A stretch of DNA of 64,000 bases. It comes from Neptuniibacter pectenicola. Lineage in GTDB: Bacteria > Pseudomonadota > Gammaproteobacteria > Pseudomonadales > Balneatricaceae. Under the pieces are notes generated by a model, which saw nothing but the letters and a program-made list of their open reading frames with translations, was not told the origin of the DNA and ran no database searches. A program made the translations under genes and the position numbers. Shown piece after piece: positions 2-59,970 of the stretch; the first letter of the stretch is position 1; each line of letters opens with the position of its first letter. The stretch spans positions 186,001-250,000 of the forward strand of contig NZ_LUTS01000003.1 of the NCBI RefSeq assembly GCF_001597735.1, in the 5' to 3' direction.

Positions 2-3000
2 AGCTCATCTAGCTCCCATTCAGATTTTAACTATTTATTTATTCATGGTGGTTCAGATTATTATATTGATGATCTAAGTATTATTGAAAGTGGCGGAGGC
101 GGTGGTGTTGCTTATCATGCTATATCTGGTGATCGTTTTGAAACCAGTGTACGCGTCAAAGTGTGTGACCCTGCTGTAGGTGTTGAATCTAATTGCCGAC
201 TTTATGGTTCTAACTGGAAGCCCGAAGGGTTGATCCAACGTTATTCCGATAATGTACGTTACAGTGTGTTTGGTTATTTAAATGATAGTAACGGCCTGCG
301 AGACGGCGGTGTATTAAGGGCTGAACAGAAGTTTGTTGGGCCTGAGCAGTTAGACCCTAGCTTAGGGGTAGTGGCGAATCCAAATAAAGAGTGGGATGAA
401 AATACGGGTATTTTAATTCAAAATCCTGATGCTTCTATTGCGGCTGATACGGCGAGTTATTATGGTGTGTCTATTGCCGATAGCGGTGTGATCAATTATA
501 TCAATAAGTTTGGTCAACTTAACTCTAACTCGTTTAAGAGTATTGACCCTGTTAGTGAGCTATATTACACCGCCCTACGTTATTACAAAAACCAATCTAA
601 CGTTCCTGCTTATTATTCGAAGTCTCCTGCCCATAACTCGTCACCTAGTAGTGGTACTATTTCGGCGTGGTTAGATAACTTTCCAGTGGTTCGTAGTTGG
701 GATGACCCAATTCAATATGCTTGCCAAAAAAATGTGGTGTTGGGAATTGGGGATGTTAATACCCATAGAGATAAAAACTTACCGGGCAACACGTCAAGCG
801 AAAATGAGCCAGCAAAGCCGTCCGAGGTTAGCAGCGATACTACGGTGAACGTGCGAACAGCGACGGATAAAATCGCTGAGTTGGAGGGTATTAGTATTGA
901 TACTGCTTCGGGTAGTTATTCGGGGCGTAATAACTCGGCGTTTATGGCGGGCCTTGCTTATGATGCTAACACGTCCGATATTCGGGATGATTTTGCGGGT
1001 ACTCAAACCATTCAGACCTACTGGGTGGATGTGCTGGAAGGTCAGGTGCTTCAAGATAAAAGGGATAACCAGTTTTGGTTGACAGCTAAATATGGCGGGT
1101 TTGAAGTACGTAAGCATCCTAGCTGTTCTATACCAAGTTATACCCCGGTTGGAACTGAGTGCAATGAACAGAGTTTGGGCAATCCTTATGCAAGGACAGA
1201 TCCTTTACCTGAGTGGTGGTGGCATACCAATAGCGATACTTTAGATCCTAATTCGGGCAGCGATTATAAACGAGCGGATACCTACTATACTGCTGGCGAT
1301 GCTCAGAAGATGGTTGATGGGTTAACAGATGCATTCGCTTCAATCTCTGCATCTGTACGTGGCGCTGCTTCTGCGCTGACAGCCAATACCTCTCGTTTAG
1401 GTACGGACTCCGCGTTATTTAATGCGCTTATGGATACAACTTTATGGTCGGGTGATTTGGTTGCGCGGGGGATTAGTTCGACGGGTGTACTAGATAGTGC
1501 GGATACATGGAGTGCAGCATCTATTATGGATGCCATTCCTGAAGCCGACTTAAATAGTCGGAAGATATTTACCAGTACTTATGCCGCTAAAGATGCATTA
1601 ACGGGTGTCACTTTAAACTCTGGTGGGGTCGAATTTAAATGGGCTAGCTTATCCGCAGAGCAGAAAGAGATGCTGCAGACGACACCCGCGAGCGGTCCTT
1701 TAACGACAGAGGCTGTAGCGCAGCAGCGGTTAGACTTTTTACGTGGTAGTCGCACATTAGAACAGACGATTGTGAATACATCGAATCCTTTCCGGCAGCG
1801 TAGTAGTCGTTTGGGGGATATCGTAAATTCTTCGCCTCAGTATGTGAATAAAAATAACTATGGTTACAGTGCGCTAGGGGCACCTACGTTTTCAGCTTCT
1901 GTTGGTAATGATTATATTAGCTATCGTAAATCGGCTACTTATGTGGATAAACCACCGATCATCTTGGTCGGTGCAAATGATGGGATGCTTCATGCGTTTG
2001 ATGCCTCTTTAGGCGTTAATGGTGGTAAAGAACTGTTTGCGTATGTGCCATCGGGAGTGTTTAGTAATTTATATGAACTCGTTTATCCCGATTATAGTCA
2101 TCGCTACTATGTAGATGGCATTCCTCGAGTTTTTGATGCTTGGTTTGATCCTGCTGATGTGCCGACTGGGATAAGTTCTGGTTGGAAGTCTGTGGTGGCT
2201 GTGACGCCTGGAGCGGGCGGTGCTGGGGTATCGCTATTAGATATTAGTAATCCTGAAAATATGACCAAAGATGAGGTCTTGTGGGAGTTCTCCCATGAAA
2301 ATATGGGGGTGTTGATTCAGCAGCCTTATATTGCACCTTTGCATAATGGTAAGTTTGGTGTAATCGTCACGAGTGGTTTCTCTCATGGTGCCACGGAGGG
2401 ACATATTTGGGTTTTAAATATTGCTGATGGATCAGTCATTAGAGACATTATTGTGCCAACGTTGGGGGGGCTAGGTCAGCCAGCCATTGTTGATTTAAAT
2501 AGAGATAAAATCGCTGATCGCATTATTGTAGGTGATACGTTAGGTAATGTGTGGCGGTTTGATATTACTAGCTCGCTTCCGAGTAGTTGGGCGCCACCTA
2601 GTGCTTTACTTAGTGGCGTAACTCCTCTCCCATTTTTTGTTGCTAAAGATGCGTCGGGAACACGTCAGCCGATTACGGGGCCGGTAAATACAGCGTTTGA
2701 TAGCAAAGGTCGTCATATGGTGTTGTTCGGCACGGGTAGTTATTATTTGAGCGGCGATAATCAGATAACTGCGACACCTCAAGTGCAATCACTATACGGT
2801 GTATTAGATACAGGTGAGGTTATCAATGATCGGTCTCAGCTTCTGAAGCAAGAAGTTCTTTTTGAGGGTTACATTGGAGGCAATGGGGCACGAGTGACGA
2901 CGGATAATAACTTGCTGCTATCCCATAAGGGGTGGTACTTGGATTTAGCGTGGGGGTCCTTGTATGGAGGGCCTGGCGGCATTGGCGAGTTGGTTGATAC

Positions 3001-3427
3001 GCGTCCTGTGTTAAGAATTGGGCAAATGATTGTTGCAACAAAAGTTCCCTCATCAGACCCTTGTCTGGCAGGGGGGAGCAGTTGGATTATGGCGCTTGAT
3101 TATGAGTCGGGATCAGCATTAAGTAATACGACATTTGATTATGACGAGGATGGAAGCTTCACTAGTTCTGATTTAGTCGGGGTGCCTACGACGGATGCGG
3201 ATGGTAATCCGATCGTTGAGAACCAAGTGGGGTCTGGTTTGATGTTGCAAGGCGGAGGGTTTGCGAATTTAGGTGACGGATCATTTGTTGCCGAAATTCC
3301 GCCGGAGGATGGTTCTTCGACCACCATCAGGGCGTGCTTAAGCAACAGTAGTACTACAGGGATTAGTTGTCCTGAATTTAATGGGACATTTAGCCAAGGC
3401 CGTAAAGGGTGGAGAGAGGTAAGGTGA
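2..3427 (+). CDS. pilY1: Type IV pilus assembly/tip adhesin PilY1 (5' end outside window)
   Basis: The reading frame is open from the first bases, so the gene begins upstream of the window; the GTG at 161 is internal. About 1140 residues are visible. PilY1 proteins sit at the pilus tip or outer surface and control pilus extension and retraction and surface sensing. The C-terminal half has the beta-propeller seen in PilY1, with the typical stretch near 2540-2575 (GDTLGNVWRFDI). Just before it, near 2489-2520, lies a calcium-loop-like DLNRDKIAD. A second acidic loop, DYDEDGSFTSSD, lies near 3134-3172. The N-terminal part visible here carries the VCDPAVG and GLIQRYSDNVRY segments common in the family. 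The stop overlaps the start of pilE by one base, as in minor-pilin operons, so upstream genes fimU/pilV/pilW/pilX are expected outside the window. Identification is strong; the N-terminal domain cannot be assessed. Confidence 0.93.
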   Translation, partial: SSSSSHSDFNYLFIHGGSDYYIDDLSIIESGGGGGVAYHAISGDRFETSVRVKVCDPAVGVESNCRLYGSNWKPEGLIQRYSDNVRYSVFGYLNDSNGLRDGGVLRAEQKFVGPEQLDPSLGVVANPNKEWDENTGILIQNPDASIAADTASYYGVSIADSGVINYINKFGQLNSNSFKSIDPVSELYYTALRYYKNQSNVPAYYSKSPAHNSSPSSGTISAWLDNFPVVRSWDDPIQYACQKNVVLGIGDVNTHRDKNLPGNTSSENEPAKPSEVSSDTTVNVRTATDKIAELEGISIDTASGSYSGRNNSAFMAGLAYDANTSDIRDDFAGTQTIQTYWVDVLEGQVLQDKRDNQFWLTAKYGGFEVRKHPSCSIPSYTPVGTECNEQSLGNPYARTDPLPEWWWHTNSDTLDPNSGSDYKRADTYYTAGDAQKMVDGLTDAFASISASVRGAASALTANTSRLGTDSALFNALMDTTLWSGDLVARGISSTGVLDSADTWSAASIMDAIPEADLNSRKIFTSTYAAKDALTGVTLNSGGVEFKWASLSAEQKEMLQTTPASGPLTTEAVAQQRLDFLRGSRTLEQTIVNTSNPFRQRSSRLGDIVNSSPQYVNKNNYGYSALGAPTFSASVGNDYISYRKSATYVDKPPIILVGANDGMLHAFDASLGVNGGKELFAYVPSGVFSNLYELVYPDYSHRYYVDGIPRVFDAWFDPADVPTGISSGWKSVVAVTPGAGGAGVSLLDISNPENMTKDEVLWEFSHENMGVLIQQPYIAPLHNGKFGVIVTSGFSHGATEGHIWVLNIADGSVIRDIIVPTLGGLGQPAIVDLNRDKIADRIIVGDTLGNVWRFDITSSLPSSWAPPSALLSGVTPLPFFVAKDASGTRQPITGPVNTAFDSKGRHMVLFGTGSYYLSGDNQITATPQVQSLYGVLDTGEVINDRSQLLKQEVLFEGYIGGNGARVTTDNNLLLSHKGWYLDLAWGSLYGGPGGIGELVDTRPVLRIGQMIVATKVPSSDPCLAGGSSWIMALDYESGSALSNTTFDYDEDGSFTSSDLVGVPTTDADGNPIVENQVGSGLMLQGGGFANLGDGSFVAEIPPEDGSSTTIRACLSNSSTTGISCPEFNGTFSQGRKGWREVR

Positions 3428-3819
3428 TGCAGCGAAGGAGTGAACAAGGCTTTTCTTTATTAGAGCTAATGATTGTTGTGGCAATTATCGGTATTTTGGC
3501 ATCGATAGCTTACCCTAGCTATCAGGAAAGTGTTGCAGAAGGGCGTAGGGTTGATGCGCAAGCGAACTTATTATCGTTGGCTCAACATATGGAACGTGAG
3601 TTTACAGAGAATGGGACTTATGCAGGTGCTGGTTTGCCTTACACTGAGGCGCCGAAAGATGGCACTGATAAGTTTTATGACCTTGCGCTAACTGTGCAAA
3701 CGGCTACCACTTACACCATCAGGGCTCGGCCTAAGAATGGCATGGCTGGTGATCGTTGTGGTGATATGTCCCTTAATCATATAGGGCAAAAAACAGCGGC
3801 GGAGACTGACTGCTGGTAG
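3427..3819 (+). CDS. pilE: Type IV minor pilin PilE
   Basis: Type IV prepilin of about 130 residues, processed by PilD and incorporated in or at the tip of the pilus. The short leader MQRRSEQG is followed by the cleavage and methylation context FSLLELM, with the conserved Glu at +5 and a hydrophobic alpha-1 helix ending in ASIAYPSYQ. Two Cys near the C-terminus (in GDRCGD and TDCW) would form the D-region disulfide. The ATG at 3427 is chosen because it overlaps the pilY1 stop (TGATG) and a purine-rich GAGAGG lies just upstream; an upstream in-frame start at 3409 would add six residues and lacks this fit. The order pilY1-pilE matches the Pseudomonas minor-pilin operon. Confidence 0.9.
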   Translation: MQRRSEQGFSLLELMIVVAIIGILASIAYPSYQESVAEGRRVDAQANLLSLAQHMEREFTENGTYAGAGLPYTEAPKDGTDKFYDLALTVQTATTYTIRARPKNGMAGDRCGDMSLNHIGQKTAAETDCW

Positions 3820-3869
3820 CAATTTCTATAATTTAATTGACTAACCTGCAATGGACTGCGGGGGGATGT

Positions 3870-4427
3870 ATGAGAAAGGGATGTTCTTCCGGCTATTGTT
3901 GGCCGCTGCCTGTGATTTTTTCAAAAGGCTTTTCTCTTGTTGAGTTGTTGTTGGCGTTAGCCTTGCTCTCAATCTTATTATTTGTAGCGGTGCCAAATTT
4001 TTCTGCAGTGTTGTCAAGGATGCAGGTGGATGCTGACGTGTCTTCTATTCGAGGCACATTGTCCTTTGCTCGAATGACGGCTTTATCAACACATAAAAAA
4101 ATCATTGTTTGTCGCTGGGATGGCGGCAGTAATTGCACGGGCGATAGCGGAAAAGATTCATTGATATGGCAAGAAGGTATGCTCGTGTATGTAGACGAGG
4201 ATGCTGATGGTAACTGGAATCCTTTAATTGATAATGTACTTAAAATTATTGCGTTTACTACTCATAATGAGATTAGATGGAATAATGGAGAGAAAGTTAT
4301 TTTCCAGCCTAATGGAAGCAGTCCTGGGTACAATGGGACGTTTCGTATAGTGAATAATACGAATGTAATTTCGGCCGAACTGATTTTATCTATGACCGGC
4401 CGTTTACGCAATAAAAGTTTAGAATAA
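3870..4427 (+). CDS. FimT/GspH-family pseudopilin
   Basis: Prepilin-like protein of about 186 residues. The leader ends in FSKG and the mature protein begins FSLVELLLALALL, with Glu at +5, followed by a GspH/FimT-like beta domain with the usual 'RMTALSTHKKIIVC' helix-to-strand junction. A Cys pair (VCRWDGGSNC) is present. It is likely a minor pilin or DNA-uptake-related FimT/FimU paralogue that follows pilE in the same operon (50-base gap). The ATG at 3870 is preceded by a GGGGGGA purine stretch; an in-frame TTG at 3837 is less likely. The leader of about 20 residues is long for this class. Whether it is FimT or FimU cannot be decided from sequence alone. Confidence 0.82.
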   Translation: MRKGCSSGYCWPLPVIFSKGFSLVELLLALALLSILLFVAVPNFSAVLSRMQVDADVSSIRGTLSFARMTALSTHKKIIVCRWDGGSNCTGDSGKDSLIWQEGMLVYVDEDADGNWNPLIDNVLKIIAFTTHNEIRWNNGEKVIFQPNGSSPGYNGTFRIVNNTNVISAELILSMTGRLRNKSLE

Positions 4428-10575: not shown

Positions 10576-11541
10576 ATGACTGATTATAAAGTTTTATTCA
10601 CAGGCTCGGTGTGCTCAGGTAAGACCACGGCCATTCGTTCATTAAGCGACATCGAAACGGTTGATACGGATGCCCGAGTCAGTGACTCGGCTATTCGCCG
10701 TAAGCGAAAAACCACAATTGCGATGGATTACGGGGTACTGGATTTATCGGATGACGCTCGCTTGCACCTTTATGGAACACCGGGGCAAGAGCGCTTTAAG
10801 TTTATGTGGGAAGTGATGATGAGTGACTTAGTGCATGATGCTGAGGGACTGGTCTTGCTGGTGGATAATACGCGGAACGACCCATTTAAAGATATCCGTT
10901 TTTATGTGGAAGAGTTTCGTGACTTTATTGTGCGTCGTCGCTTAATTATTGCCGTTACCCATTCGGATGAACAAGCCGAACCCGATCACGATTACTATAT
11001 GCAAGAACTGAAGGCGATGGGGTTGTTTACGACGGTCATCTTCATTGATGCTAGGGATCCCTCTTCGGTGTTAAAAATCGTTAAAGAGTTGGTTGGGCAT
11101 AGGGAAAAAGAGATCGCTTGGTCGGAACTGGAAGAGCGCTTGGCTGTAAATAGTTCGATGCCTCAAGTCACCGAGGAAGAGCATGAGTCTTCTAGCGCTG
11201 ACATGAGTGAGAATGTCACCCTCCTTGACGCCGCAATGAATACCCGAGGTATAACGGGGGCTATTCACTTAGGCGCGGACCGTAAAGTGCTTAGCTCTAA
11301 TGTAAGCAGTAAGCAAAATAAAGAGTTGCTTCGCTCCATGATCAATCTCGTGACTGCATTAGAGACGAAAGCGTCTTTCTTAGGGCATATAGACGACCTG
11401 GTGTTATGTGGGCCGCAACAAGAAACCCTATCGGTTTTTGTGGAAAAAGAGCAAGCACTGGGCTTGTGTTCTGATAAAGAGTTAAGTATCAATGTAGTTA
11501 AACAGCAAGCGATGGATCTTTTGCAGTGGAGTCAGCGGTGA
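10576..11541 (+). CDS. CvnD/Mgl-like small GTPase fused to a C-terminal roadblock-like domain, copy 1
   Basis: 321 residues in two parts. Residues 1-185 are a Ras/Arf-like GTPase of the COG2229 type: P-loop GSVCSGKT at 10-17, paired Thr (TT) at 46-47, G3 as LYGTPGQERFKFMW with TPGQ at 68-71, and G4 degenerate as THSD at 128-131 in place of NKxD. The GTPGQ...FMW form is like the CvnD GTPases of actinobacterial conservons. After an acidic, Ser-rich linker, residues about 215-321 (GITGAIHLGADRKVLSSN onward) have the length and strand pattern of a roadblock/LC7 domain, the fold that acts as GAP or partner for such GTPases. The RBS AAGGGA is six bases from the ATG. The downstream gene overlaps by four bases. 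A second copy of the pair follows at 12099. The GTPase call is firm; the roadblock assignment is by pattern. The cellular role is unknown: polarity, motility or signalling are possible. Confidence 0.82.
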   Translation: MTDYKVLFTGSVCSGKTTAIRSLSDIETVDTDARVSDSAIRRKRKTTIAMDYGVLDLSDDARLHLYGTPGQERFKFMWEVMMSDLVHDAEGLVLLVDNTRNDPFKDIRFYVEEFRDFIVRRRLIIAVTHSDEQAEPDHDYYMQELKAMGLFTTVIFIDARDPSSVLKIVKELVGHREKEIAWSELEERLAVNSSMPQVTEEEHESSSADMSENVTLLDAAMNTRGITGAIHLGADRKVLSSNVSSKQNKELLRSMINLVTALETKASFLGHIDDLVLCGPQQETLSVFVEKEQALGLCSDKELSINVVKQQAMDLLQWSQR

Positions 11542-11888
11542 ACGAATTGCTCGGTACAGTCGATAAAGAGAATATTGTTGAGAGTAGTTGCTTCTTGGAA
11601 GGTAAAGAGGTGACCGCGTCCTCTTTTTCTAAAGCGAATCGACATTACGAGACCGTTGCAAGACAGACCTTTAGCTATATCTTTTTAAATGTAGGGAAGC
11701 ATAAAAGTAAGCACAATGAGGCGCATTTAGAGATAGGTGATAAGCGTTTAAGCGGCTTTCTGCTCAAGGCGAATCGGGTGTTGGTCTGCTTGTCGGCGAA
11801 AGATACCAATATTGTTGATGTGCGTGCGCATGTTCAACAGGTTCAGCGTTTAATGTTAAAGGCTGAAGTAGATCGAATGCTCGCTTAA
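11538..11888 (+). CDS. Small roadblock/LC7-like partner protein, copy 1
   Basis: 116-residue protein. The GTG at 11538 is chosen because it overlaps the upstream stop as GTGA and has a GGAG six bases before it; an in-frame GTG at 11526 has no such site. No named domain is certain, but the pattern (early strand with ESSCFLEGKEV, long amphipathic helix, then EAHLEIGDKRLSGF, a strand RVLVCLS and a last helix after DTN) fits a divergent roadblock/LC7 fold. It is paralogous to the protein at 13039: both share EAH(L/I)EIGD, SGF and LS..DTN. The overlap with the GTPase gene implies coupled translation and a probable complex. Confidence 0.72.
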   Translation: MNELLGTVDKENIVESSCFLEGKEVTASSFSKANRHYETVARQTFSYIFLNVGKHKSKHNEAHLEIGDKRLSGFLLKANRVLVCLSAKDTNIVDVRAHVQQVQRLMLKAEVDRMLA

Positions 11889-12098
11889 TTGAGCGTTAGC
11901 TTGATTATAGATCTCTATTTTTCTGTTCCTATCGGTAGGTCTTCGACTTATTCGTCATATCAATACATGATTAAGCATGCGATAAATGCCGTACTCTCGA
12001 TAAAAATCTGAATGTTTTTTGAGGTGTTTTAGTTTCTGTTCAGCTCGATCTGGCTACACTGACACTATCAATATTCCTCTGACATAAGGACAGTATGC

Positions 12099-13055
12099 AT
12101 GAAGGATTATAAGATCCTATTCACAGGGTCGGTTTGTTCAGGTAAAACGACAGCGATTCGGTCAGTGAGTGATATTGAAACACTGGATACAGATGCGCAA
12201 GCCAGTGATGTAACCGTTCGGCGTAAGAAAAACACCACCATCGCAATGGATTATGGTGTGTTAGATTTAAATGATGATACCCGTGTCCATCTGTATGGAA
12301 CGCCAGGACAAGAACGATTCCGCTTTATGTGGGATATGTTAACCAGCGAATTTGCTCACGACGCCATTGGTATGGTGTTATTGGTTGATAACACCCGCAA
12401 AGACCCTTTCAGAGATATCCGCTTCTACGCTAAAGAGTTTGGCGATTACCTGCGCCAACGCCGATTAATTATCGCCGTTACTCACTCCGATGTGGAGCCT
12501 TCCCCTGATTACAACCGTTACCTAAGTGAGTTAAAAGGCTTAGGTGTGATGACAACGGTTATGTTCGTCGATGCCAGAGACCCCCGCGCTATATTGGGGG
12601 TGATTGAAGAGTTGATTTCAGCGGTAGAAAGAGAGATCGATTGGGATAAAGTATCTGATCGCTTGCTTGATACAAATGGCTTTTCGCTTGATTTCTATAA
12701 GCCCCTCTATGAAGAAACACTCCTCGATGCTGCGATGAATAAACGCGGGGTTTTAGGCGCGATGCATCTAGGGGATGCTCATGATGTATTGTGCTCAAAT
12801 ATAGACGATGCCTCCGTTAAAACATTACTACTGAATATTGATAGGCTCACGGGCGCTATTTCCGACAAGGCGAGTTTTATGGGCGCTGTGAATAACGTTG
12901 TTTTAGCGGGACCTGACGTTGATACCTTATCGGTTTTTAATGATCAGAATCAGGCCCTCTGTTTACGTTCAGATAAAGCGATATCACTGCCGGTATTAAA
13001 ACAGCAAGCGAGTGACCTGTTGCAATGGAGTATCGAAAATGACTATATGGCATGA
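12099..13055 (+). CDS. CvnD/Mgl-like small GTPase fused to a C-terminal roadblock-like domain, copy 2
   Basis: 318-residue paralogue of the protein at 10576. The first 74 residues align without a gap: P-loop GSVCSGKT at 10-17, TTIAMDYGVLDL at 46-57, TPGQ at 68-71 followed by ERFRFMW. G4 is again THSD. Divergence is concentrated in the linker between the domains (RLLDTNGFSLDFYKPLYEE here against an acidic Ser-rich linker in copy 1) and in the roadblock-like half, although TLLDAAMN.RG is kept. The RBS AAGGA lies eight bases before the ATG. It has its own 210-base upstream region, so it may be transcribed separately. The next gene overlaps its 3' end by 17 bases. The divergence suggests an old tandem duplication with separate partners. 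Confidence 0.82.
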   Translation: MKDYKILFTGSVCSGKTTAIRSVSDIETLDTDAQASDVTVRRKKNTTIAMDYGVLDLNDDTRVHLYGTPGQERFRFMWDMLTSEFAHDAIGMVLLVDNTRKDPFRDIRFYAKEFGDYLRQRRLIIAVTHSDVEPSPDYNRYLSELKGLGVMTTVMFVDARDPRAILGVIEELISAVEREIDWDKVSDRLLDTNGFSLDFYKPLYEETLLDAAMNKRGVLGAMHLGDAHDVLCSNIDDASVKTLLLNIDRLTGAISDKASFMGAVNNVVLAGPDVDTLSVFNDQNQALCLRSDKAISLPVLKQQASDLLQWSIENDYMA

Positions 13056-13365
13056 TATGCAGGCGGCGGGTTTAATTCATTGCGGCTGCGTATTACTGAA
13101 TGGGGAAGTGCAGCACTCCTGTTTTCCTGCTGAGTCTAAAAAACAATTGGCGGTTGCTAAACAAGCACTCATGTATGTTTTTCGTTCGGTGGATAAAAGC
13201 GATAAGGATTATGATGAAGCACATATCGAGATAGGCGATGCCTTGTTTAGTGGCTTTAAGCTAGATTCTGATAGGTTGCTGATTTTTTTGAGTGAACATG
13301 ACACGAACACATTACAGATCCGTCAGTTTATTGATGACAATAAAGAACGCTTTCTACAGCTGTAA
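13039..13365 (+). CDS. Small roadblock/LC7-like partner protein, copy 2
   Basis: 108-residue paralogue of the protein at 11538. The ATG at 13039 has a TGGAG eight bases upstream; an in-frame GTG at 13012 would lengthen the overlap and lacks a site. It keeps EAHIEIGD, SGF and LSEHDTN, and has a Cys in the first strand (HCGCVLLNGEVQ), where copy 1 also has a Cys. It overlaps the GTPase gene by 17 bases, which points to translational coupling. The fold is inferred from pattern only. Confidence 0.7.
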   Translation: MTIWHDMQAAGLIHCGCVLLNGEVQHSCFPAESKKQLAVAKQALMYVFRSVDKSDKDYDEAHIEIGDALFSGFKLDSDRLLIFLSEHDTNTLQIRQFIDDNKERFLQL

Positions 13366-55059: not shown

Positions 55060-56121
55060 GTGTTTGGCTTATTGGGGAATAAATCGGGAAGCTTGGTTGG
55101 GCTAGATATTGGCTCGTCTTCGGTTAAGCTGGTTGCGTTGTCTAAAAATGGACAAAGCTATTCGTTGGAAGCTTATGCCGTCGTGTCTTTGCCTCCTACT
55201 GCTGTTATTGATGGAAATATACAGGATGTAGGTGAAGTTGCTGCTACCATCGAAAAAGCGATGAAGGTTGCAGGGGGGCGAATGTCGTCTGCCATTGCTG
55301 CTGTGCCGGCGTCCGCTGTCATCACTAAACGTATAGAGATGAGTAATGCCTTTTCTGAGTTTGAATTGGAAGATCAGATAAAAGTAGAGGCTGATCAGTT
55401 CATTCCATATTCTTTAGACGAGGTCGCATTAGATTTTGAAGTGCAAGGACCTGTTGAGAATAACGATCACTTGAATCGAGTATTGCTTGTTGCCTGCCGT
55501 AAAAGTGATGTAGAACAGCGAGAAGACGCAATCAACAGTGCTGGTTTGAAGTGCCAAGTGGTCGATGTTGATACTTACGCGGTAGAGCGTACCTTTCCTC
55601 TTATCTCCTCCGAACAAAGAAGCACTGATTATTTAATTGGTGTTGTTGATATTGGCGCTGCCACCTTGACCTTAAATGTGTTTAAGGGCGGTGAGATTGT
55701 TTATAGCCGAGAACAAGCCTTTGGCGGTAATGATTTGACGAACTCTATTCATCAGCAATATGGGATGAGTATCGAAGAAGTTGAACAGTCATTACGCCTT
55801 AATGATCTCTCGCCAGAGATTAATGAGATGGTGGTCCTTCCTTTTAGGGGAACGGTAGCACAGCAAGTATCTCGTTCATTACAGTTTTTCTATTCATCGG
55901 GTGCACATAGTGAGCTTTCAGCGCTTTATCTTTCAGGCGGTACAGCAACTATTGATGGGCTTGCAGAGCAGCTATCGGAAGAGTTAGGTATAGCGACTAA
56001 AATGGCTAACCCTTTCAACTCAATGGCTATTAATTCGAGAGTTAATCGATCTAGACTTGAACGGGATGCGCCTTCATTAGTGAAGGCTTGTGGTCTGGCG
56101 ATGCGTGGATTTGAGGGTTAG
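55060..56121 (+). CDS. pilM: Type IV pilus inner-membrane platform protein PilM
   Basis: 353-residue actin-like ATPase-fold protein, cytoplasmic. SLVGLDIGSSSVKLVAL is the first phosphate-loop and GVVDIGAATLTLNVF the second. It binds the PilN N-terminal tail. GTG start with AGGG upstream. First of the pilMNOPQ operon, whose genes are separated by 12 bases or fewer. Confidence 0.95.
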   Translation: MFGLLGNKSGSLVGLDIGSSSVKLVALSKNGQSYSLEAYAVVSLPPTAVIDGNIQDVGEVAATIEKAMKVAGGRMSSAIAAVPASAVITKRIEMSNAFSEFELEDQIKVEADQFIPYSLDEVALDFEVQGPVENNDHLNRVLLVACRKSDVEQREDAINSAGLKCQVVDVDTYAVERTFPLISSEQRSTDYLIGVVDIGAATLTLNVFKGGEIVYSREQAFGGNDLTNSIHQQYGMSIEEVEQSLRLNDLSPEINEMVVLPFRGTVAQQVSRSLQFFYSSGAHSELSALYLSGGTATIDGLAEQLSEELGIATKMANPFNSMAINSRVNRSRLERDAPSLVKACGLAMRGFEG

Positions 56122-56127
56122 GGACAG

Positions 56128-56682
56128 ATGGCAACTATCAATTTAAGACCCTGGCGTGAAGAGCGCGCAGAAGAGAGAAAGAAAAATTTCGTGATGAACC
56201 TGTTAGGAACCGCGTTGTTTGCGGGGCTTATCGTGTTTGCGGTGGGTTACTATTTTGATGCGATGAAAGATCGTCAAAATGATCGAAATGGTTACTTAAA
56301 AGCGGAAACGGCAAAGTTGGATCGTGACCTTGCTGCGATTAAAGAGTTAAAGGAAAAAAGAGCAAAGCTTTTGGAACGCTTGACGGCGATTCAGGAGCTA
56401 CAGGGTTCAAGGCCGCTTATTGTAAGGAATTTTGATGAACTGGTGAGGGTGATGCCTGATGGCCTCTACTACTCGTCGTTATCACGTAAGGCTAACAATG
56501 TGGTTATAGCGGGTTTGGCTCAAGATAATTTAGATGTATCTACTCTGATGAGAAACTTGGATACCTCAATCTGGTTTGGTGAACCTAACCTCAGTGGTGT
56601 TGGTAAAGGAAAGGATAGTTTGAATACATTTAACCTTTCGGTTCCTATTGCTAAACCTAAAGCGGATGAGGCTGGCAAATGA
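56128..56682 (+). CDS. pilN: Type IV pilus alignment protein PilN
   Basis: 184 residues. The N-terminal INLRPWREERAEERKK is the PilM-binding signature; one membrane helix follows (LLGTALFAGLIVFAVGYYF), then a coiled-coil and a ferredoxin-like periplasmic domain. The 3' end overlaps pilO by four bases. Confidence 0.95.
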   Translation: MATINLRPWREERAEERKKNFVMNLLGTALFAGLIVFAVGYYFDAMKDRQNDRNGYLKAETAKLDRDLAAIKELKEKRAKLLERLTAIQELQGSRPLIVRNFDELVRVMPDGLYYSSLSRKANNVVIAGLAQDNLDVSTLMRNLDTSIWFGEPNLSGVGKGKDSLNTFNLSVPIAKPKADEAGK

Positions 56683-57275
56683 GTGCGTTACAGAATGCGT
56701 TTAAAGGATTTGATCCTAATGATATGGACTTCAACGCCGCAGGAAATTGGCCGATTGGGGTGAAAATAGTCTGCTATCTGATGGTGATGATTGCTATCGG
56801 TGCTGCGGGGTGGCATTTCTATATTACAGACAAGCAAGTGGCTCTCAAAAAAGAGATTGCTAAAGAGAGCGGCTTAAAAGCGGTGTATGAGGAGAAAGCA
56901 TTCCAGGTCGCTAATCTTGCTGCACTTAGAAAACAGATGGAAGATGTAGAAGATAAGTTCACTGAGCTGAAAAAGCAGTTACCGACTGAAAAAGAGGTAC
57001 CTGGACTTTTAGACGATATTACCAACCTAGGCACGGATAGTGGTTTGGATATTGGGTCGATAAAATTGGCCGCAGAGTCGAAAAAAGAGTTCTACATTGA
57101 GCTGCCTATTAATATTAATGTTTCAGGTTCGTATCATCAGCTTGGGCAGTTTGTAAGTGGTATTGCTGGGCTACCACGTATCGTAACCTTACATGATTAC
57201 ACAATAAAACCCTCAGGAACGACGGTCTCTATGCAGATTAGTGCTAAGACCTATCGTTATGATGAAACTAAATAA
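56679..57275 (+). CDS. pilO: Type IV pilus alignment protein PilO
   Basis: 198 residues. One membrane helix (VKIVCYLMVMIAIGAAGWHF), a periplasmic coiled coil (LRKQMEDVEDKFTELKKQL) and a C-terminal alpha/beta domain. PilO pairs with PilN to link PilM to PilP. The start overlaps pilN (ATGA). Confidence 0.95.
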   Translation: MSALQNAFKGFDPNDMDFNAAGNWPIGVKIVCYLMVMIAIGAAGWHFYITDKQVALKKEIAKESGLKAVYEEKAFQVANLAALRKQMEDVEDKFTELKKQLPTEKEVPGLLDDITNLGTDSGLDIGSIKLAAESKKEFYIELPININVSGSYHQLGQFVSGIAGLPRIVTLHDYTIKPSGTTVSMQISAKTYRYDETK

Positions 57276-57286
57276 GGGGGGCAAGG

Positions 57287-57847
57287 ATGACGCATCATAG
57301 TAGGATTATTATCTTGTCATTATTACTTTCTTTACTCACTGGCTGCGTTGAGTGGGTAGAGGATGACAGTGATTTAAAGGAATTTGTCACTGCCGTTCAG
57401 GCAAAGCCTGCCGGCTCAATTAAACCACTCCCTGAATTCAAACCGTACCATAGCTTTGTCTATAAAGGTGCGTCGATGAGGGAGCCGTTTGTTCCGCTGA
57501 TTCCATTTTCAGTGAGTGCTGATGAGGATGAAGAGGTTAATGCTCAATCTGATAATGGTATAAAGCCTGATGAAGTGAGGGCGAAAGATTATCTTGAATC
57601 GTTTGCTGTAGATCAATTGGATATGGTCGGCACGATTAATCAAAAAGCGGATAATACATTATGGGCTTTAATTCGTGATCCTAATTCAGAAATTCATCGG
57701 GTTACTATCGGTAATCATATGGGTTTGAATTTTGGCGAAATCGTTTCGCTGGATGAGCGTAAAATAGAGTTAGTTGAAATTGTAACGAATGGGCGTGGTG
57801 GTTGGATGAAACGATCACGAAACCTTGCCTTGGCTGAGCAGGAATAA
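57287..57847 (+). CDS. pilP: Type IV pilus lipoprotein PilP
   Basis: 186 residues. The lipobox LLTGC puts the lipidated Cys at residue 20. A long disordered region leads to the C-terminal HR domain (LDMVGTINQKADNTLWALIRDP) that contacts the PilQ periplasmic part. Found in the usual place between pilO and pilQ. Confidence 0.94.
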   Translation: MTHHSRIIILSLLLSLLTGCVEWVEDDSDLKEFVTAVQAKPAGSIKPLPEFKPYHSFVYKGASMREPFVPLIPFSVSADEDEEVNAQSDNGIKPDEVRAKDYLESFAVDQLDMVGTINQKADNTLWALIRDPNSEIHRVTIGNHMGLNFGEIVSLDERKIELVEIVTNGRGGWMKRSRNLALAEQE

Positions 57848-57858
57848 GGGATATTATT

Positions 57859-59970
57859 GTGAAAATTCGGGTCCCCATGATGACTGATATTAAAGTACGT
57901 GTTTATAAAAACCTCCGTTGGTTGAGCATCGCTTTGGTCAGTCTTTTATTGTCGGAGTGGGCGGCAGCAGATGTTTTGATGAAAAATGCTAATTTTGTGG
58001 CCCTGCCGGGAGGGAAGATAGAACTTCGTTTTGATTTCGATTCAGCACCTCCTTCTCCGCAAGCTTATATGATCAACCAACCCGCCCGCATAGTAATGGA
58101 CCTATGGGGTGTTGAAAGTGATTTAGCCAGTCGTTCACTGGATGTTAAAACAGGTCAAGTGGATGGTGTCAGCTTCGCGCAAACGGATGGTCGTTTGAGA
58201 ATCGTTGCTAATCTCTATGAGCCTTCTAGTTACAACACCTTCGCTGAAGGTAATAGTTTATTTGTTGTTGTTCAGAGTAAGAACGCTGGACTACCGGTAT
58301 CAACATCGGAAACATCAGATAATGTAGTCGCTAAATCAGCGGATGCAGGGGCTAAAACGTCATTCGAAGAGACTCGCTCGAAAGTTCAAGGTATGGATTT
58401 TGAACGCATCGAAGGGGGAGCCGGTCGAGTAACCATTACGATGTCTGATGATAAAGCAGGCGTAGATATTCAGGAAGAAGGTAATAACGTTGTTGTTAAC
58501 TTAGTCGGTGCGGATCTCTCTCGGGCGTTGGAGCAGCGGGTTGATGTGCAGGACTTTGTGACGCCGGTCATGTTTATCGACTCGATGGCGAACGGTGGCA
58601 ATACCAGTATATTGATTAAGCCCAGTGCTGAGCCTTATGAATACCTTGCTTACCAAACTGACAACCAGCTCATTCTCGATTTTAAACCGTTAAGCCAAGC
58701 TGAAAAAGACGAAAGAGCGAAAGAGTTGTTTGAGTTTACGGGTGAGCAGATAGACCTTAATTTCCAGAATGTTGAGTTACGCTCGGTTTTACAAATTATT
58801 GCAGAGGTTGCTGAGTTAAACTTAGTGGTGAGCGATAGCGTGGGCGGAAATATCACCCTGCGTCTTAAAAATGTTCCTTGGGATCAGGCACTTGATATCG
58901 TTTTGAAAACGGAAGGCCTTGATCAGCGTACGGTCGGTAATGTTTTACTAATTGCACCTGCCGATGAAATAGCACAGCGAGAGAAGGCGGAGCTTGAAAG
59001 CTCTCAGCAGGTTGAGCAGCTTGCGCCATTACGGACTGAGTTTATTCAGGTCGATTACCGCAAAGCATCCGAGATGATGGGAACGATTCAGGGCGCAAAA
59101 TTGGTTTCTGAACGCGGCTTTATCATGGCGGATGATGAAACAAATGTCCTAATGGTTCGAGAGACGACTAATGCCATTCAGGAGATTCGTGATACATTGC
59201 ACCGCTTTGACGTCGAGGTTGAGCAGGTATTAATTGAGGCACGCCTTGTTAATGCTACGTCCAATGTAACGAAAGACTTAGGTATTAAATGGGGCTTTGG
59301 TTATAACGATGTTGATAACGGTAAAGGCTGGATTGTAAGCCAAGATCAGAGCTCAATTGATTTCTCCAGTACATCGCCGACCAGTGGTTTGAACGTGGAT
59401 CTTGGTGCTACAGCAACTAATGTAGGGCAGATTGCAATTGGCTTTGCGCCAGGTGCAAGTACATTGATCGGTTTAGAGTTGAGTGCATTAGAAGCGGACG
59501 GTAAAGCTGAAATTGTTTCTCAGCCTAAAATTCTTACAACTAATGGTAAGAAGGCATTGATTCAATCGGGTTCTGAAATCCCTTATCAAACCGTTGAAGA
59601 CGGTGAAGTGAGTATTGAATTTAAAGATGTTGTACTTAGTTTGGATGTGACGCCCCGTATAAACCCGGGTGACCGGATCGCAATGGAACTTGTTATTAAG
59701 CAAGACTCTATCGGTCAGGTTTTGGCTAACGGTGAGCTGAGTATTGATAATAATGAGTTGCAAACAACCGTGGTTGTGCCTGATGGGCAAACCATTGTGC
59801 TTGGTGGCGTGTTTAAAAATGAAACGAGCGATAGTGTTAACAAAGTCCCACTGTTGGGTGATCTGCCAATTATGGGTGCGCTATTCCGAAACAAAGAGAG
59901 CACTTCTGAGAAAACGGAGTTATTGATCTTCATTACACCGAAGTTAGTACGTAATTCCTTATCTCAGTAG
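57859..59970 (+). CDS. pilQ: Type IV pilus secretin PilQ
   Basis: 703 residues. Two AMIN-type peptidoglycan-binding domains at the N-terminus (about residues 35-260), then the N0 domain (DLNFQNVELRSVLQIIAEV), the N1 domain, and the C-terminal secretin core with VEQVLIEARLV and VPLLGDLPIMGALFRNKESTSEKTELLIFITPKLV. It forms the outer-membrane pore for the pilus. It starts with GTG at 57859, with alternative ATG starts 30 bases further on. Confidence 0.96.
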   Translation: MKIRVPMMTDIKVRVYKNLRWLSIALVSLLLSEWAAADVLMKNANFVALPGGKIELRFDFDSAPPSPQAYMINQPARIVMDLWGVESDLASRSLDVKTGQVDGVSFAQTDGRLRIVANLYEPSSYNTFAEGNSLFVVVQSKNAGLPVSTSETSDNVVAKSADAGAKTSFEETRSKVQGMDFERIEGGAGRVTITMSDDKAGVDIQEEGNNVVVNLVGADLSRALEQRVDVQDFVTPVMFIDSMANGGNTSILIKPSAEPYEYLAYQTDNQLILDFKPLSQAEKDERAKELFEFTGEQIDLNFQNVELRSVLQIIAEVAELNLVVSDSVGGNITLRLKNVPWDQALDIVLKTEGLDQRTVGNVLLIAPADEIAQREKAELESSQQVEQLAPLRTEFIQVDYRKASEMMGTIQGAKLVSERGFIMADDETNVLMVRETTNAIQEIRDTLHRFDVEVEQVLIEARLVNATSNVTKDLGIKWGFGYNDVDNGKGWIVSQDQSSIDFSSTSPTSGLNVDLGATATNVGQIAIGFAPGASTLIGLELSALEADGKAEIVSQPKILTTNGKKALIQSGSEIPYQTVEDGEVSIEFKDVVLSLDVTPRINPGDRIAMELVIKQDSIGQVLANGELSIDNNELQTTVVVPDGQTIVLGGVFKNETSDSVNKVPLLGDLPIMGALFRNKESTSEKTELLIFITPKLVRNSLSQ

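Follow-up and report, generated by a model that had tools for sequence, protein, structure and literature searches.

Tandem MglA-family GTPases with a predicted C-terminal roadblock domain, each encoded beside a free roadblock protein, in Neptuniibacter pectenicola

A 64,000-nucleotide stretch of the genome of Neptuniibacter pectenicola (NZ_LUTS01000003.1, positions 186,001 to 250,000; hereafter the window) was analyzed, and two tandem GTPase/small-protein pairs, G1-R1 and G2-R2, were found at positions 10576-13365, with all four open reading frames (ORFs) in place. By analogy with an engineered MglA-MglB complex, each pair would constitute a tethered, asymmetric MglA-MglB-type switch in which a roadblock domain fused to the GTPase and a free roadblock protein form the regulatory dimer of the attached GTPase (probability approximately 0.58). 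The array is not a conservon, and its GTPases are not Rag proteins by descent; in layout, however, it resembles Rag, and in its parts MglA. More tentatively, the Rag-Ragulator layout may have a bacterial counterpart here, assembled independently on the basis of an MglA-family GTPase: paralogous GTPase-roadblock proteins would dimerize with one another, with free roadblock subunits dedicated to them, or both, and would derive from a transmembrane G-protein signalling operon without a kinase (sensor-HAMP / roadblock / GTPase-roadblock) that has no earlier description in Gammaproteobacteria. The genes and domains are as follows.

G1: 10576..11541, plus strand, 321 aa, MglA-family GTPase (about residues 1-180) fused to a predicted C-terminal roadblock domain (residues 215-321)
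C-terminal roadblock domain of G1: 11218..11538, plus strand, coding sequence without the stop codon, a row of profile A6 (see below)
R1: 11538..11888, plus strand, free roadblock protein predicted by homology to R2
G2: 12099..13055, plus strand, 318 aa, paralogue of G1 with GTPase and predicted C-terminal roadblock domain, from its 59% identity to G1, an AlphaFold2 (AF2) model and Foldseek
C-terminal roadblock domain of G2: 12717..13052, plus strand, coding sequence without the stop codon, α-β-β-α-β-β-β-α order in the model, included in profile A6
R2: 13039..13365, plus strand, predicted free roadblock protein, from an AF2 model (mean predicted local distance difference test (pLDDT) 93) and roadblock fold matches

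The starts of both small genes were refined from the sequence and orthologues, the longer ORF starts at 11526 (R1) and 13012 (R2) being mechanical only. For R1 the most likely start is GTG 11538, which overlaps the stop codon of G1 as GTGA, and for R2 it is ATG 13039, giving a 17-nt overlap with G2.

An earlier note on this DNA had described a tandem duplication of a GTPase and a small overlapping roadblock gene, which was confirmed: G1 and G2 are 59% identical over their full length, and R1 and R2 are 36% identical over 88 aa (E 2e-20). The gapless GTPase alignment that it reported over 74 residues reflects real homology but was understated, since the alignment is gapless through about residue 193. 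After this residue the linkers of G1 and G2 differ in length, and the linkers and partners have diverged, as had been noted (36% for the partners versus 59% for the GTPases). The order G1-R1-G2-R2 before clpB was kept in all six Neptuniibacter genomes sampled (the present one and those of loci L033, L034, L043, L044 and L045). Ratios of nonsynonymous to synonymous substitution rates (dN/dS) against genome G332 were 0.028 for G1, 0.037 for R1, 0.035 for G2 and 0.095 for R2, and stayed at approximately 0.01-0.1 across all parts, indicating purifying selection. Because of the order kept in six genomes and these low ratios, the array is not regarded as a product of chance. The fused domain itself is rare, being detected in this genome and one other among 369 genomes of the class and in this genome only among 398 genomes of the phylum.

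Assignment of the C-terminal domains of G1 and G2 to the roadblock/LC7 superfamily is well supported by profile and predicted fold. Single window proteins gave no roadblock match with Pfam and NCBIfam (below the Pfam cut-off), and the identity was reached through alignments and models rather than single sequences. A profile of the C-terminal domain built from 35 relatives (A6) matched 13 PDB sequences at E<=0.1, all of which were roadblock/LC7 proteins (best E 1e-4), and Robl_LC7 matches below threshold were obtained for several relatives. The AF2 model of G2 had a mean pLDDT of 80, and its C-terminal domain (mostly 83-93) showed the canonical α-β-β-α-β-β-β-α order. When the full G2 model was searched by Foldseek, the ten best PDB matches were all Rag/Gtr proteins (Gtr1, RagA, Gtr2 and the Asgard LokiRagO), spanning both domains. 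VIA-align of full-length G2 gave G-domain matches only among the 50 matches listed and was uninformative on the C-terminal domain.

A roadblock fold is likewise predicted for the partners, for R2 from its model and for R1 by homology to R2. The R2 model showed roadblock topology, and its leading fold matches were Thorarchaeal, Lokiarchaeal and Streptomyces roadblocks, MglB, Ragulator (VIA Z 12.4) and the roadblock domains of Rag GTPases. Profile alignment also shows the fused domain to be homologous to the free one (hhalign E 1.2e-5). The roadblock-like character that the earlier note gave to the C-terminal halves and small proteins, and that it would have withdrawn had they lacked roadblock similarity, was thus upheld by profile A6, the R2 model and Foldseek. 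The two domain types differ in what they conserve: the fused domain conserves β5, β1 and the last helix (KQQ..DLLQW), and the most conserved element of the partner is strand β3 (entropy 1.46 versus a mean of 2.27), which carries an invariant Glu. Strand β3 is the usual dimer edge of roadblock proteins.

The GTP-binding motifs of G1 and G2 are intact (GSVCSGKT, GTPGQERF, THSD and F(I/V)DAR), and in 35 full-length relatives there is no variation at the Lys of the P-loop, the tandem Thr of switch I, the PGQ glutamine or the DAR Asp and Arg. MglA Groups 2 and 3 are marked by GTPGQ in G3, a G4 without lysine and DAR in G5 (Wuichet and Sogaard-Andersen 2014, PMC4316618); G1 and G2 show all three, the motifs of Group 3, although these are also common to Group 2. 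Group 3 comprises beta- and gammaproteobacterial MglA with one or two MglB (PMC4316618). The nearest single-domain relatives of G1 and G2 are the GTPases of the beta/gamma-proteobacterial Group 3 cluster, at 45-51% identity. In Methylococcales, Thiothrix, Leucothrix and others this conserved cluster has the order C4, REC-like C3, GTPase, C1, Robl_LC7 C2, PAS-like and PhnD-like (the REC-, PAS- and PhnD-like labels being our reading of the sequences; C1 gave roadblock matches below threshold), and it fits the Group 3 neighbourhood of PMC4316618. For Streptomyces homologues encoded on plasmids, identity was only 31-35% over most of the domain; the two of these that were checked lay in annotated conservon operons. 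In a small tree with few reference rows, the fused GTPases and the Group 3 cluster GTPases stood apart from CvnD, Thermus and Deinococcus on a branch with support 92/90.

Because of the motifs, these identities, the neighbourhood fit of the relatives and the tree placement, the G domain of G1 and G2 is, as far as sequence goes, of the MglA family and the Group 3 lineage and distinct from CvnD; the label CvnD-like given earlier was therefore replaced. The Neisseria row of the placement tree was disregarded, its locus having a split GTPase frame. At this locus (L158 2501-3036, NZ_CP119140.1, a 2.17-Mb Neisseria gonorrhoeae record listed as a plasmid) the reading frame of the Group 3 GTPase is broken into two that overlap, and a C1-type frame lies downstream of the GTPase; Neisseria is a Group 3 genus (PMC4316618). 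Sequence comparison did not point to Rag/Gtr descent of the G domain, the nearest relatives being MglA Group 3 in a tree that held no Rag sequence, and the Gtr1_RagA Pfam model was matched by only 3 of 35 fused members (best E 0.0035). The G1-R2 locus resembles the Group 3 systems in its GTPases, in these motifs and in its coupling to roadblock genes, but lacks their neighbourhood of a REC-like protein, a GTPase and one or two separate MglBs. The Group 3 GTPases are single-domain proteins, whereas in G1 and G2 one roadblock is fused, a free roadblock of another subfamily is encoded next, and a membrane sensor is present in relatives.

All fused GTPases formed one clade (SH-aLRT 98, tree rooted on single-domain relatives), so that the fusion probably arose once. 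Outside Amphritea, a roadblock partner gene was found directly behind every fused GTPase, usually overlapping it or within approximately 110 nt. A long partner (approximately 213-246 aa, a roadblock plus a C-terminal segment) occurs in Thiotrichaceae, Leucothrix, Thiomargarita, a gammaproteobacterial metagenome-assembled genome (MAG), Neptunomonas-like genomes and Pontibacterium. At ten long-partner loci a third gene, for a membrane protein of approximately 370-400 aa, lies directly behind the partner; it always accompanies a long partner and never adjoins the short-partner clade (Neptuniibacter, G314 and one Neptunomonas locus type). The three membrane proteins that were scanned each combined a PF21623 sensor domain with a HAMP domain close to the extreme C-terminus and had neither output domain nor kinase; the rest are homologous to them. 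The following sensor-HAMP proteins end at the HAMP domain.

L038: 5720-6913
L041: 2413-3600
L047: 9588-10778
L051: 7636-8751
L066: 4443-5627
L086: 7858-9054

From these data the ancestral operon looks to have comprised a GTPase-roadblock, a longer partner and a membrane sensor (a periplasmic domain plus HAMP, without kinase), and Neptuniibacter to have the doubled pair without the sensor and the partner tail, the direction of gene loss being read from the rooted tree. A search for an orphan sensor elsewhere in the N. pectenicola genome gave only partial matches inside larger open frames (660-1609 aa). The earlier note was right that CvnA and CvnC are absent at the locus, but its minimal switch requires revision: since relatives carry a kinase-less CvnA-like sensor, the locus looks like a reduced derivative and not a primitive minimal switch. 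Genome G314 holds only G1-R1, which groups with G1 (support 94; weak in a smaller G-domain tree, 82/23). Because of this grouping, the tandem duplication seems to predate Neptuniibacter, with G2 lost from G314. Another adjacent pair, of the long-partner type, was found in Pontibacterium (L047). In many genomes a single fused GTPase occurs with a single partner, and for this reason the pair is taken as the unit. The full three-gene operon is also present on the contig of a MAG named Aquificaceae (L054, QOAQ01000028.1), whose GTPase falls with those of Thiotrichaceae in the tree; the contig is probably mis-binned or transferred. In the Amphritea-type genomes (L050, L053, L056, L058 and L083) the fused GTPase, which has neither partner nor sensor beside it, occupies a conserved place and forms a very long branch, and a gene for a 66-aa membrane protein comes next in L050, L053 and L083.

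The conservon shares with these operons the logic of sensor, roadblock and GTPase, the HAMP membrane sensor of the relatives and a DAR-type MglA-family GTPase (CvnA-D, MfpA-D). The array and its relatives differ from it in gene order, in the fusion of a roadblock to the GTPase and in the G-domain identity given above. Of the conservon set of HK-like (histidine kinase-like) cvnA, cvnB, cvnC (DUF742) and cvnD, no kinase or CvnC-type gene was found at the window locus, nor between the operon genes of the relatives.

The proposed switch has a close experimental analogue. Engineered MglA-link-MglB1 alone gave a negligible soluble amount, and its co-expression with free MglB2 gave a functional asymmetric complex (Chakraborty et al. 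2024, PMC11016934). MglB is a dimer of which one protomer makes most of the MglA contact, and a roadblock in cis was described as unique to Rag GTPases (PMC11016934). In the pairs analyzed here, the GTPase domain would carry one roadblock in cis on a linker, in the 'MglB1' position, and the overlapping downstream gene would supply the free roadblock ('MglB2'). The two would pair as an asymmetric dimer on the switch regions of the attached GTPase and tune GTP hydrolysis and nucleotide exchange, with putative action as GTPase-activating protein (GAP) and guanine nucleotide exchange factor (GEF). In the ancestral operon, control over the state of the complex would have come from the kinase-less sensor (periplasmic HK-type sensor domain plus HAMP) acting through the long partner, as CvnA presumably does via CvnB/CvnC; a route from sensor through GAP/GEF to GTPase has been proposed for conservons (PMC13343842). 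Neptuniibacter would keep the switch without the sensor and without the C-terminal segment of the partner, the pair having doubled before the genus diversified. The layouts agree in having GTPase, linker and roadblock in one chain with a co-expressed free roadblock; the engineered complex, however, is artificial and has two identical MglB protomers, whereas the present layout is natural and its fused and free roadblocks have diverged. Conservation of β3 in the partner, alongside that of other elements in the fused domain, is consistent with pairing of the fused and free roadblocks. Several points weigh against a tethered switch. The relative placement of the two domains in the G2 model is unreliable (predicted template modelling score (pTM) 0.55); by sequence alone the partner family reached a roadblock only at E 0.34 (7yh1, the sole PDB match up to E 10); the GAP residues are not transferable from MglB; and the partner is dispensable in Amphritea, whose fused GTPase has neither partner nor sensor.

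The closest known layout, which the earlier note did not name, is that of Rag/Gtr with a roadblock in cis plus a separate roadblock protein, as in Ragulator/EGO and the Asgard Rag-like proteins. G1 and G2 might accordingly form a heterodimer through their C-terminal roadblocks, as RagA-RagC and Gtr1-Gtr2 do, with R1 and R2 as a separate roadblock scaffold binding it. The domain order equals that of Rag/Gtr, as the ten best Foldseek matches over both domains reflect; two diverged paralogues stand side by side in six Neptuniibacter genomes, as does the adjacent pair in Pontibacterium, and an Asgard Rag-like pair encoded in one operon is predicted to heterodimerize likewise (PMC10933270). This arrangement is nevertheless unlikely. 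With several genomes having a single fused GTPase, and G314 only G1-R1, a G1-G2 heterodimer cannot be an ancestral requirement; each copy has kept its own partner gene, giving one free roadblock per GTPase; and the G domain, with GTPGQ and DAR, descends from MglA and not from Rag. For the last reason the Rag layout looks convergent.

A role in trans for the fused GTPases, filling in for the GTPase that a Group 3 MglB cluster lacks, was judged improbable. Such a cluster is present in the same genome (L042 263-4734; G000:C171:196262-200733), with C4, C3, C1, Robl_LC7 C2, PAS and PhnD-like genes, and its GTPase slot is empty, only 35 bp separating C3 and C1. The cluster was present in all six family genomes having a fused GTPase, but this association, though suggestive, was not significant (6/6 versus 7/12, p = 0.09), and in six family genomes that have the cluster no GTPase was detected. 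In two Thiotrichaceae MAGs, moreover, a fused operon coexists with a cluster that has a GTPase of its own (L086/L094 and L064/L095). When profiles of the fused and free domains were compared with those of the C171 roadblock genes (A8, A9), no match was obtained, but A8 was too uniform to be informative (effective number of sequences 1.4-1.6), and the fused domain may still derive from the adjacent Group 3 roadblock gene. Still less probable is a decaying remnant that no longer signals without the sensor. The sensor and the C-terminal segment of the partner are indeed absent here, and R1 and R2 are among the faster-evolving parts; however, the low dN/dS in all parts, the intact GTP-binding motifs of both copies and the retention of both pairs in six Neptuniibacter genomes all speak against decay.

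A tethered switch of this kind would offer a natural bacterial fusion with a co-encoded free roadblock, that is, a ready-made asymmetric complex, available in two adjacent paralogous versions, for telling apart the GAP and GEF roles of the fused and the free subunit; the 2024 MglA study needed engineering to obtain a GTPase-roadblock fusion (PMC11016934). A literature search for bacterial GTPase-roadblock fusions found no description, with subscription papers incompletely covered. The array suggests more than one possible origin for the Rag layout, and the related operons hint at a transmembrane G-protein pathway that lacks a histidine kinase and is simpler than conservons for the question of how a receptor drives a bacterial small GTPase.

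The four plus-strand genes are flanked by an M15 dipeptidase gene and clpB (contig C127). A promoter scan gave fewer sites than in its shuffles, and no gene neighbouring the G1-R2 array points specifically to motility. Type IV pilus genes occur in the window, not adjacent to the array, and no functional link was drawn: PilY1 and a ComP-type minor pilin lie at its start (161-4427), and PilM and a PilQ-type secretin near its end (55060-59970).

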